From: Eunapius fragilis | Lineage: Eukaryota; Porifera; Demospongiae; Spongillida; Spongillidae | Assembly: GCA_963681505.1 (NCBI GenBank) | Contig: OY811972.1 | Coordinates: forward strand, 4,425,332 to 4,489,331 | Direction of reading: 5' to 3' | Length of the DNA: 64,000 bases | Part shown: one piece after another, positions 13,048 through 23,496 of the stretch | Layout of the letters: every line of letters starts with the position of its first letter | How positions within the stretch are numbered: position 1 is the first letter of the stretch | The notes under the pieces: generated by a model | The model's input: the letters and a program-made list of their open reading frames with translations, nothing else | Told to the model about the DNA's origin: nothing | Database searches by the model: none | Translations under genes and position numbers: made by a program

Positions 13048-13078
13048 AACCTCTTCCAATTTCAGAGTGTAAATTCCA
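13048..13078 (+). repeat. left terminal inverted repeat of the two-gene transposon
   Basis: Pairs with 23466-23496. The first 17 bases are identical and the rest is imperfect. Confidence 0.85.
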
Positions 13079-13362
13079 TTTTAAAAATAAGTGTTGCATG
13101 ACTTGAGTTTTTATGTGCCATTTTATCAATTCGGCTTAGGCTGCTGATAAAATAGCAACAAAAAGACCCTTTCCGTCGAACCTGTACTATTGCATTACGT
13201 TTTTTCTGACTATTCTTATTGGAATTAGTAATCGTTTTAAAAAGATGAACAACTTTTACAACAACAAATTAGAAAGCCAAACATAATATATAATACATAT
13301 ATATAATGCATATATAATGCAACAGAATATGAGTGTACACAATACATTAGAAGTGTTCATAA

Positions 13363-16300
13363 TTAGTACAATCCAAACTCAACACTTGGGTCACGTGTGT
13401 ATTCATCGCGTTCTTCATTATCATCGTGTTCTTCACTATCTGTTTCTTCTTCTCCTTGTCTAATAAGAGTAACGAGTTCTGTTGCTGTTTCATGTAGCAC
13501 AATAACGTTTCGTCGATTCTTCATTGCAATTATTGGAATGGCTGAAAAATAACATCATAACATCAGTGTATGTGTTAATGCATGCAATAGTAAACGTGCT
13601 ATTCTATGGAGTGCAAGTTCTACATGGTTGCATGTTTGGGAATATATTTATGTAAATGCACTTCTGAAATCTGGCCCATCTGCTCTGTAGAAAATTTCAG
13701 ACCTTCCAAAATATAAACATGCAAAAAACTAATGCTGAGAAATACCATCTTCTTTTGCATGCATAGAAATTTCAAGTGTACCAAACTTGACATAGTAGTG
13801 GTTTTGGACACTTAGAAAACTATTAGAATATTTGGATGCTTTGAAATTTCAAGTACAATATTTTAAACAAATACACTGATGCACAGTACCATGCTTAAAT
13901 TTGCTTAGAAATTTCAAGAGGTTTCAGATGCTTTGAAATTTCAAGTGCACCAAAATCTGACCTCTATTTTCCCTTCTACCAAAAGTGATGTACCGTGGTT
14001 TAGCATGCATTGAATTTTCAAGTTCACCAAAAGCTACATTACCTAAAAAAGGACATTTTGACACTTAAATATGTTAAGTTGATAAAAACTGCATTTTACT
14101 TGCATGGGCAACTTCATCATTGCGTGCATATTGTGATAACTTACTTTTGTCATTTCCACAGGAAAGAACACGGTCATTCTCAGTCGATAGTATTGATATT
14201 AGCTGCTCATAGATATTAGTGCCTGTAAAGAAATTTTGTTGTTCTATCTTTATGCAGGTCTTGTCTGATGCAGCTATTAGAAATGGGATCACCATTTGTT
14301 TCAGCAAAGTTCCTGTGGTGTTAATTATTTATTAATTTCATTGTGCGAAAGTACAAAACCATTAATGACCTGAAGGCGGCTCCTGTGAAGTATAATATGC
14401 TGTCTGCACTAGCATGTGTGCAGCACAAAGTTGCCTTTGCAGCTCCCATAACCCTTCAGGCTCATATGAGGATGTAAACACAACCACAGAGTATGTTGTA
14501 ATATTTGAAGCAGTATTGATGGCTTTCACTGTTCGTAAAATGGACACAATCTGTAGGTAAAAATAAGTGTATGTCATTCCGTTGGGTTAATTATAAATGC
14601 ACCAGTAGAATAACACCAGCAAAACTCACGTGCTCACATTCTTCTTTCTCTAAAGCAACAAATGAGAGACAAAAGCCCGCAAAACCTGGGATCATAGACT
14701 TTACTTCTTCGTATGAAATTGAAGATATACATTTCGGTACAAGAATAGTGGAGTGCTTCTTATCATTTGACCAAACAACAAGTGATTGTGCATCAATATC
14801 CATTGGACTAGAATGAACTGTCTTGGATCTGAAGTGAATGATACAGTGCACATTATGCAATTATTCTATTCATTTGCATTGTTTGTAAAACATGCACATA
14901 CCTAACAGCCCTCGAACAGTAATCACTGAATGCAGCAGGTATTGGACTAAAGTTGCATTTAAGAAAAAGGTCAGCTAACTGTTTTTCATTGGCAAAATTT
15001 GGATATCTTTTTTGTGCCTCATTCCAGTCCTTTGTACCTACTAAAGATACAAAGGATTCTACAATTTTTTTCATCTTTTTTTTGTTGAGACTAGTTGAAT
15101 TAAGACTTTTGAGAGTGTTTTCTCCACTTGCACAATTTCGCAGTATTTCCGTGATTTCCATCTCACTGAGGCCTCGCAGACCACGGAAGTTGCTTCCTTT
15201 GCAGTCTGTTTTTGCTGCTACAATTCCTTTGACTTTGATCATTTCATACTTTGTTACAATATCTCTGTACAGTGTGTAGTTATTGTTGCTCAATGAAGAT
15301 AGCATGAATATCATGTTGTCTTCCAACTGTTTCTTCTATCAGATTAAAATAACTATGGACACATTTTTATCTTGACTATTATAGTGTAACTTACAGTCAT
15401 CATTAGTGTGCTAGCACAAGAATTTTTCCATTCACTGCTTCTGTCTGGAGGTTCTTCTGTTAATGACTTCTTTGCCATTGAGTAGAGTTGCAATCGACAA
15501 AGGTGAACCTTAGAGGAAAAAAAAAACATAAGTACTTGGAGGAATGAAATTCAAACATTTTACCTTGTCCTGTGTCGTCATTTTGCAGGTGAAATCAGTT
15601 GCACGATTATGCCGAAGGGCTAGATGCTGTGCTTGTTCATCAGACATGTGTGAATAAACACTCACTCGTCTAGAAGAGAATTGAGGGTCTCGTCTTAAGT
15701 CTTCATTTTCTTGTGCCAGTTGCTGCAAGGCTATTCTAGAATGATTACCGCCTATTGTTTCATATGTAAATGCTTCAGGATGCTTAGAATCAAACTGTTC
15801 ATCATCCCTTAGCCTAGCAATCGCAATCATAGGAGCAACGTGACTAGTTCTGTTCTCTAACATTTCCAGCTTTAAGCTGGCAATAAAGTGATCATCTGGA
15901 TCCCGTATGCTGCATTCCTTTCTCGGAGGAAGCAGGCAGCTAATTGGTATTGCAAAGTTTCCTGCAAAATAATAGGTGCAATAATTACAGGGCATTCAAA
16001 CTTGTCTATGAATGCGGTCAAGTTTTGTTGTTTCAATTCACGTTGGGTGCACATAAAAACAGTCAATACTACTTGGAATGTGTGACAAATGAAGTACGTT
16101 ATGTGTCTACATGTGTGTGTGTGGGTGTAGCAGTTGAGATGTCAGTGCATTGTGCGCAGGACAGCACCGAATGATGCACATTTAAAGTGTACTCGAACGT
16201 AAGTATGATACACATGAACGTACCAAGGAAGCATGATTCAAGTATTTTGTCAAACTCTTCAGGTACATCAACTTCTTCCGTGTTACCTTTCCTCCGCTTT

Positions 16301-16954
16301 GGTTGCAACGCTGATGATGCACCTGTTGTTCCAAAGAGAAGGGCTATTAATAATGAATAGCAAAAAAGCTTATAGTTTTGCGTACATTCATCTTCACATT
16401 GGATGTTTCCGGGTTGTTTAGATGGGCTTGATCTCGGTACTAAATAGCGAAAATTGAAGATATTAACTATGAGTTAATGATCACTATACTATTCAATGTA
16501 CCTTTTGATGAAATGCTGAATTTTCCGTCCACAGACAGTTTAGGTTTCACTTTATTCTGCCATATTTGTACGAAATTAGAAGTCGATCCAACTCGTTCAA
16601 AAAGTTTTGAGAAGTCGTTGTCTGATGAGTCGAAGTTGTCAGGCGATAGTTGTTTTGCAGGAGGGGTACCATGGATGGATTTGAACTACAAAAATACAGA
16701 TTATCCTTTTAGACATTTAAAACATTTAGCAATCACGATAAGTTGGTAACGGTTATTAGCTTGTTTGCATTCAGCGTAGTTTAACGTACAACTAAGAACG
16801 ACTTCTCAGCTTTTTTGAAGTCCTTAACGTCAATCACAGCTCCTACGTAGGGACGCTTTCCTTCTTTGAAGTTGCCTTCTGCTCTCATTCTTTCACCTCT
16901 TTTGACTAAAACCACAAATCCTTCGTCGTCAACTCTTAAGCTCCACAAAGACAT
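13363..16954 (-). CDS. transposon-borne protein with a ParB-like motif (724 aa, 11 exons)
   Basis: Exons in transcript order: 16954-16790, 16685-16502, 16439-16386, 16322-16224, 15961-15564, 15508-15395, 15335-14902, 14828-14630, 14550-14370, 14312-14145, 13541-13363. Every junction is GT-AG, phases agree, and the sum is 2,175 nt, ending in TAA. Exon 5 carries the notable part: MIAIARLRDDEQF at 212-224, then YETIGGNHSRIALQQL at 234-249, where GGNHSR (238-243) matches the G-x-H-R box of the ParB/sulfiredoxin fold. ALRHNRATDF follows. In bacterial ParB this box binds and hydrolyses CTP; in related nucleases it acts on DNA. The C-terminus is acidic (EEETDSEEHDDNEERDE). Role inferred: a DNA-binding, clamp or nuclease partner of the transposase encoded divergently 114 bp away. 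It may equally be a captured gene. No signal peptide or membrane segment. The gene model is firm; the function is tentative. Confidence 0.75.
13766..14020 (+). repeat. cluster of GAAATTTCAA palindromic motifs, left end of transposon
   Basis: Exact or near copies lie at 13766, 13842, 13908, 13934 and (TGAATTTTCAA) 14011, often followed by GTGCACC or GTGTACC. They sit in the last intron of the minus gene. The same motif clusters near the right end at 22507-22642. Confidence 0.7.
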
Positions 16955-23000: not shown

Positions 23001-23144
23001 AAAATAAGAGGAATTACTCAAACTGAAGAATTGAACGCACAGGGAGTGTTAAAGAACAATATACATCTGACGAAAACGAACAGACTAACAAACATTGATG
23101 TTAAAGAACTGAAATTGCTATATACTACCACAACCTTTGTGTAA
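17069..23144 (+). CDS. RNase H-fold transposase-like protein (872 aa, 11 exons)
   Basis: Exons: 17069-17360, 17508-17570, 19873-20435, 20488-20609, 20700-20958, 21013-21165, 21225-21330, 21385-21620, 21677-21985, 22106-22252, 22776-23144. All junctions are GT-AG and in phase; total 2,619 nt with stop. Residues 30-65 hold three imperfect repeats of CSSVVYFSDLS. A CDIC zinc-knuckle-like pair lies at 313-316. The candidate acidic triad is D372 (SVIIDGMDQ), D458 (LYLQLDNTARENKN) and the E/D of GHTHEDVD (493-500). As I recall it, this order is that of the DUF7869-type domain common in invertebrate mobile elements. Residues 745-845 form a small beta domain (VPFCVGEFVACKL to WVGTYSTIWVKW), like a Tudor/BAH reader. 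Predicted nuclear. It probably catalyses element movement, but only the fold-level similarity supports this. An extra exon in the 2.3-kb second intron cannot be excluded. Confidence 0.8.
18180..19190 (+). repeat. TG microsatellite with higher-order units
   Basis: Long TG runs are separated by the recurrent spacer ACTTGCATTCTCT (at about 18267, 18427, 18555, 18644, 18728, 18872), giving units of roughly 85-100 bp around 18540-18750. A pure TG run covers about 18894-19012. It lies in intron 2 of the transposase-like gene, and the long Cys/Val open frames across it are artefacts. Confidence 0.9.
22507..22642 (+). repeat. cluster of GAAATTTCAA motifs, right end of transposon
   Basis: Exact copies at 22507, 22564 and 22633, in the last intron of the plus gene; counterpart of the left-end cluster at 13766-14020. 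Confidence 0.7.
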
Positions 23145-23465
23145 ACATGTGTATTTATTTATTCATTAGTTTAGAAAGTTAAGAACAATTGGAATTGGTC
23201 AAAATCATGAAATAGTGTTGGTGTATAGCATTCAATTTATAAAGGAACAGTTAATTTTCTGCAATTGGCACAAAATAGTTGCATATAATTTACACTGGAC
23301 CTGCTTCTATGCAATCCACATAGCTTGAAAAAATCTAGTTCGTAACAAGATAGCAGTCACCATGATGCTTGCTTTATGAATAAAACACCGTGTTATTGAA
23401 AAAAGCTGCAAAAGAACAGTAAAAAATTACTTAATGAAGATGATTTCCTCATGTTTGGTAGTAAT

Positions 23466-23496
23466 TGGAACATACAGTGTGAAATTGGAAGAGGTT
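23466..23496 (-). repeat. right terminal inverted repeat of the two-gene transposon
   Basis: Ends TGAAATTGGAAGAGGTT, the exact complement of the first 17 bases at 13048. The flanking TTCT is at 23497-23500. Confidence 0.85.

Follow-up and report, generated by a model that had tools for sequence, protein, structure and literature searches.

The locus and its two genes

The DNA analyzed here is a 64,000-bp window of the genome of the sponge Eunapius fragilis (G000:C2:4425332-4489331), and the genome searched comprised 219 Mb in 24 contigs. Positions 13048..23496 of the window form one complete DNA transposon of 10,449 bp, which carries two divergent genes, hereafter A and B. Its arms top the 49 inverted pairs of the region by length, with 34 nt at 85% identity and an identical first 17 nt. 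When the flanks were rejoined without the element, an open frame spanned the junction, and its translation read as the reverse transcriptase of a long interspersed nuclear element (LINE); outside the junction, the interrupted LINE is decayed, with stops and frame changes. These results agree with an earlier note on this DNA, which had described a complete transposon with 17-bp perfect inverted ends, TTCT on both sides and a LINE frame restored upon removal. The note had also named an assembly join as a possible source of error. This is unlikely because two additional copies elsewhere show identical ends and genes, and with these copies we rejected both chance and an assembly join as the origin of the element.

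All introns of A and B are GT-AG, neither gene contains an internal stop, and both coding lengths are divisible by three (Table 1). As predicted models, the genes thus match the intron-rich, lesion-free 11-exon pair that the note had proposed. The single-frame relative L096 aligned in one piece to residues 128-644 of A, passing through the junctions of exons 3-8 into exon 9, which supports the splices there. The models are less secure for exons 1, 2, 10 and 11 of A and for a large part of B.

The Pfam model DUF7869 matched residues 389-584 of A over its full length. Three aspartates stand out in this protein: Asp372 in IIDGMDQN, Asp458 in LQLDNTARENKN and Asp500 in GHTHEDVD. All three align with an intronless relative from the same genome. 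In a seven-row alignment (A4, from 7 of 13 rows), the second and third are invariant, and only two rows extend over the first. By reading, the motifs recur in proteins L094, L099 and L101, which come from foreign bins described below. These motifs, together with the location of A inside a transposon, suggest that A is a DDD transposase. We rejected a Ginger or IS481-like assignment: DUF7869 was the sole Pfam model above the cut-off in A, and no integrase (rve)-type domain was found there.

Table 1 Features of the element, in window coordinates
Feature	Position	Strand	Basis
Target-site duplication, left copy, TTCT	13044..13047	.	Sequence, flank reading
Left terminal inverted repeat; first 17 nt, AACCTCTTCCAATTTCA, perfect	13048..13081	+	Same end in C9 and C23 copies
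Gene B, 11 exons, 2175 nt, 724 aa; ParB-like core (suggestive), aa 169-300 (exon 5, 15961-15564)	13363..16954	-	Gene model
Left cluster, four GAAATTTC palindromes (13766, 13843, 13908, 13935), intron 10 of gene B	13766..13942	.	Motif count
Gene A, 11 exons, 2619 nt, 872 aa; DUF7869, transposase-like, D372-D458-D500	17069..23144	+	Gene model; PF25273, E=3.2e-65
GT-rich simple-repeat tract, ~1 kb, within 2.3-kb intron 2 of gene A	18157..19190	.	Reading; GC skew 0.495 at 18001-19000
Right cluster, three GAAATTTC palindromes (22507, 22564, 22633), intron 10 of gene A	22507..22640	.	Motif count
Right terminal inverted repeat	23463..23496	-	Inverted-pair search, end comparison
Target-site duplication, right copy, TTCT	23497..23500	.	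Sequence, flank reading

Copies, gene pairs and selection

A search for other copies with the same ends and 4-bp duplications, as the earlier note had advised, found two complete ones, at C9:9399033-9409238 (TAAA on both sides) and C23:1035788-1048683 (TTAA on both sides). The left 313 bases of the element matched both at 100% (rounded), and the right 352 bases matched both at 100% and contig C5 at 97%. In gapless comparison with the window, the C9 exons differed at 9 of 2503 covered bases in A and 7 of 2137 in B, and the C23 exons at 5 of 2211 and 8 of 2137, so that the covered exons of both copies are >99.5% identical to those of the window; exon 2 of A in C9 and exons 1 and 2 of A in C23 were unmatched in the sequence compared (totals, 2619 bases for A and 2175 for B). 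The element has probably been active recently. The C5 copy is a right-end fragment of 1.25 kb with 99% identity. Relative to the element in the window, the C23 copy has ~2.4 kb of additional sequence, mostly between the conserved blocks of A and B.

Two related copies on C11 retain both ends, which are 70-78% identical to those of the element. They lie in opposite orientation with equal match scores (C11:7183334-7191485 and C11:6900599-6908755). The first, which was read, carries an internal deletion in which the DUF7869 part of A is missing; no DUF7869 match was found at the second, and this twin presumably carries the same deletion. Either the pair moved in trans or it represents an inverted duplication.

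More distant families have ends of the type AACC-N-CTTCC with at most two differences. Across four families, a perfect 4-bp duplication flanked nine of the ten copies with both flanks read: TTCT, TAAA and TTAA in family 1, TATA, AATA and GCAA in family 2, TACG and TAAT in family 3, and GGTG in family 4. The exception is a family-2 copy on C19 with TTAA on the left and TATA on the right. Six bases of the left inverted repeat are missing from the C1 copy with GCAA, and no right end was found for the C6 copy, which has its left end. The TTAA-only target duplication of Kolobok and piggyBac did not apply, as TTAA was just one of nine different duplications, and these superfamilies were rejected. 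The family-4 copy (L090, L091; C9:3.16M) sits inside a 31-bp satellite with a unit like TGGTATGATGGTCACCTCTCCCAATACATGG and has GGTG on both sides.

We analyzed the co-occurrence of A and B at loci merged by hand from at least 70 A and at least 74 B matches, leaving out weak matches to the single-frame kind described below; this gave at least 21 A and at least 29 B loci. B lay within 15 kb of 14 of the 21 A loci, in all 14 cases head-to-head at 1.0 to 13.4 kb, against a chance expectation of 0.08. Whether the genes travel together had been posed as a question by the note, and these divergent pairs, along with five on foreign-bin contigs, answer it in the affirmative. An apparent A-only copy, L017, was rejected as such: it is a deletion copy whose left end lies 572 bases before exon 5 of A, and it lacks B and the first A exons. 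At the distant C4:9.23M locus, the sequence between the A and B matches contains an uninterrupted Gypsy-like gag-pol frame of 1535 residues and THAP-like and DDE-like frames (L085:1268-5875 and L085:7146-8788, both on the minus strand), all labeled by reading.

A second kind of DUF7869 gene occurs on C3, C6 and C7, exemplified by L082:3153-5822 (minus strand) on C6, which encodes 889 residues. Like A, these single-frame proteins carry DUF7869 and the three aligned aspartates; unlike A, they are encoded in one frame, have C-terminal C2H2 zinc fingers and no B nearby, and share 29% identity with A over the domain. Among 25 hand-picked other DUF7869 loci, mostly with one long frame, none had B within 15 kb; five of these contain an 891-residue frame with equal scores. 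No inverted ends were found around one single-frame gene, and the locus that was read adjoins a long tandem array.

When A was used for a pattern scan, 11 relatives turned up in bins labeled bacterial, eight of them in one bin labeled "uncultured Trichormus" (CAKZGI01; contigs L094-L100 and L102), where the genes are long single frames. Five of the eight carry a B relative in divergent orientation upstream of A, with about 25-33% identity. The other three begin 519-598 bases before the A frame, and on the four contigs with whole frames B starts >860 bases before A; those three therefore could not show B. Four more contigs of the bin contain B with no A match. No B was seen on L101, L103 and L104, short contigs from other bins, and a search of the L101 bin with B also found none. 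An AG resembling a splice acceptor precedes the B frame at the same place on all four foreign-bin contigs inspected by eye, suggesting that the contigs with the gene pair are probably misbinned eukaryotic DNA. No convincing pair of inverted ends was found on the foreign-bin contigs. Pattern scans with A and B found no relatives on viral contigs, and the phage collection contained no relatives of A at E<=0.01. A pattern scan with B likewise found no prokaryotic relatives, yet the collection scanned proved afterward to contain B genes that the scan had missed, which makes negative results of such scans weak.

Both genes are under purifying selection, and their proteins have been kept. Between families, the proportion of nonsynonymous differences (pN) in exon 5 was 0.19-0.31 for B and 0.12-0.17 for A (0.42 in the most distant), against a proportion of synonymous differences (pS) of 0.78-0.94, which is near saturation. 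In the foreign bin, pN was 0.17 against a pS of 0.73 for A, and 0.18-0.22 against 0.87-0.91 for B. The near-identical C9 copy was left out of these estimates, as was row C2_10.1, which is invalid because the aligner drops stop signs.

A palindrome inside the ends

The element contains seven occurrences of GAAATTTC, compared with a mean of 0.3 in 200 shuffles (maximum, 3) and two in the remaining 53.5 kb of the window. A family-3 copy has 10 occurrences on its left side and 30 on its right, often spaced by 32 bp and with flanking sequence unlike that of family 1; these counts are not independent because the arrays are partly tandem. An unbiased 8-mer count in the subterminal DNA of the four families found only four 8-mers that occur at least twice in all, and these overlap to give TGAAATTTCA and a TTTCAGA variant (resampled null mean 0.105, maximum 2). 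The TGAAATTTCA palindrome is thus marked as a candidate site at which either B or A might bind.

Probable relation to Sola and competing explanations

The element probably fits Sola, with membership judged from descriptions rather than from Sola sequences. Its 4-bp target-site duplication and its short terminal inverted repeats (17 bp perfect, 34 bp at 85%) are of the Sola type. Sola transposases reportedly have a DDD, not DDE, catalytic triad. B lies on the strand opposite to A, as in Sola1 with a ParB-like gene, the ParB identity of B being suggestive only. Sola1-1_Ec32 of the brown alga Ectocarpus is described as a 21.5-kb element whose opposite strand encodes a ParB-like protein of 1104 residues. 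This protein also has an N4/N6 DNA methyltransferase domain, and its authors propose that proteins of this type bind the transposon that encodes them and modify it (PMC12477816). The general arrangement of a large DNA transposon with a transposase gene and an opposite-strand ParB-like protein is therefore already in print. The earlier note could name no superfamily for the element, which was probably wrong in view of this published gene opposite a Sola1 transposase and of the testable features. Unlike Sola1-1_Ec32, the present element is 10.4 kb long, and neither B nor its relatives on L094 and L099 showed a Pfam methyltransferase at E<=1. The Sola2 elements of Dictyostelium and Polysphondylium resemble it in having 4-bp AT-rich duplications, short inverted ends (12-21 bp), a transposase of about 890 residues (888 in Sola2) and an extra gene, but that gene is Fanzor1 rather than ParB-like, and their duplications are AWWT or similar (PMC3627910). 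Among the top-ranked titles and abstracts of the open-access literature, we did not find the gene pair with DUF7869 named, without a methyltransferase, or outside algae.

The ends and their duplications, the additional copies, the pairing of A with B, the selection acting on each of them and the palindrome common to the families were observed directly. With a probability of roughly 0.6, we favor the explanation that the element is complete and autonomous, has recently moved by cut and paste, and belongs to a DUF7869 lineage with two genes that is most likely a branch of the Sola superfamily, on the Sola1 side. In this view, A is a DDD transposase and B a ParB-like DNA-binding partner. A would cut at the AACC...GGTT ends and join them to the target with a 4-bp stagger. 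B, transcribed divergently, may bind the TGAAATTTCA palindromes clustered 0.7-1 kb inside each end, and its ParB-like core suggests clamping on palindromic DNA. Once bound, B could help to mark or pair ends that lie 10 kb apart, or it could control the shared upstream region. For end pairing as the role of B, we see about one chance in three. The most specific version, in which B is a eukaryotic ParB-type clamp that occupies parS-like TGAAATTTCA sites near both ends and pairs them through a nucleoprotein bridge, is a long shot.

Several observations weigh against the favored explanation. The placement of A near Sola was made from described features of the elements, and the duplications depart from the AWWT given for some Sola2 elements. 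Solved RNase-H-like structures and PDB profiles yielded nothing significant with A. No partner accompanies 7 of the 21 A loci or 15 of the 29 B loci; one of these, at C11:7.18M, was read as an internal deletion of A, and its twin at C11:6.90M is presumably another. The palindrome occurs twice on the left and not on the right in family 2 (1096 and 713 bases read), five times on one side and not on the other in family 4 (only 294 bases read on the latter), and not at all on the four foreign-bin contigs counted; B therefore need not bind it. Comparison of B with ParB models and structures gave no significant match, PF02195 was found nowhere in the genome (six frames, exon by exon) versus matches in 11 of 14 control genomes, and pairwise scores against four ParB proteins were near chance in most rows.

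The status of B can be judged in more detail. The earlier note had read a ParB-like motif in one of the genes; the order of the motifs and of the predicted strands and helices upholds this and is suggestive of a ParB-like core, but no significant profile or structure match accompanied it. In 300 shuffles, the score of window B against the four ParB proteins was reached by 20, 26, 8 and 249, respectively, and with one of these proteins the score of the family-4 row was reached by 5; foreign-bin rows were at chance. PF02195 did not match B, seven members of the B alignment (A3, from 7 of 13 distinct rows) or the B relatives of L094 and L099. With hhalign, B against five ParB proteins of two bins reached a probability of 0.2%, though in the correct register. 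A PDB profile search with B gave nothing significant, Foldseek with the second B model returned no matches at E<=0.001, and the VIA rows for the ParB N-domain were weak. Both structure models have low confidence, with predicted local distance difference test (pLDDT) values of 40.5 and 49.6. The absence of a significant profile or fold match and the low model confidence speak for the alternative that the motif resemblance is due to chance, B being an unrelated protein with a DNA-binding or structural role. Given the preserved order of motifs and predicted structure elements, we regard this as unlikely.

A further possibility, doubtful but with somewhat more in its favor, is that A alone moves the element and B is dispensable for cut-and-paste, acting as a regulator or as a counter-defense passenger that, for example, marks or shields element DNA. 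The 25 B-less DUF7869 loci, including the five with an 891-residue frame and equal scores, would fit this if they are mobile, and so would the algal ParB-like part fused to a methyltransferase, with its proposed role in modifying its own transposon (PMC12477816). Yet the pair has been kept within the lineage over a saturated synonymous distance and also in a second, very distant source. Least probable of the three is a separate DDD transposon superfamily, distinct from Sola1-3 and consisting of the DUF7869 group with its ParB-like partner. The libraries searched name A no further than DUF7869, the gene pair is conserved at about 25-33% identity, and DUF7869 goes unmentioned in the open-access literature searched; such absence, however, is no proof of novelty, every testable structural feature fits Sola, and a published Sola1 element has a ParB-like gene opposite its transposase (PMC12477816). 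These explanations overlap, and their odds do not sum to one.

Overall, these results extend a remark on one algal element to a possible pattern, in which a DUF7869 transposase has a ParB-like gene as its long-kept, selected, divergent partner, with no methyltransferase seen in the present case. If B did prove to be a clamp, a partition-like module would have become a transposition cofactor, kept in this sponge as well as in the remote source from which the foreign-bin contigs derive. The palindromes near the two ends are a specific candidate site for binding, the three complete copies, which are almost identical, could serve in cell assays, and the element provides a lead toward a transposase role for DUF7869, a domain of unknown function.

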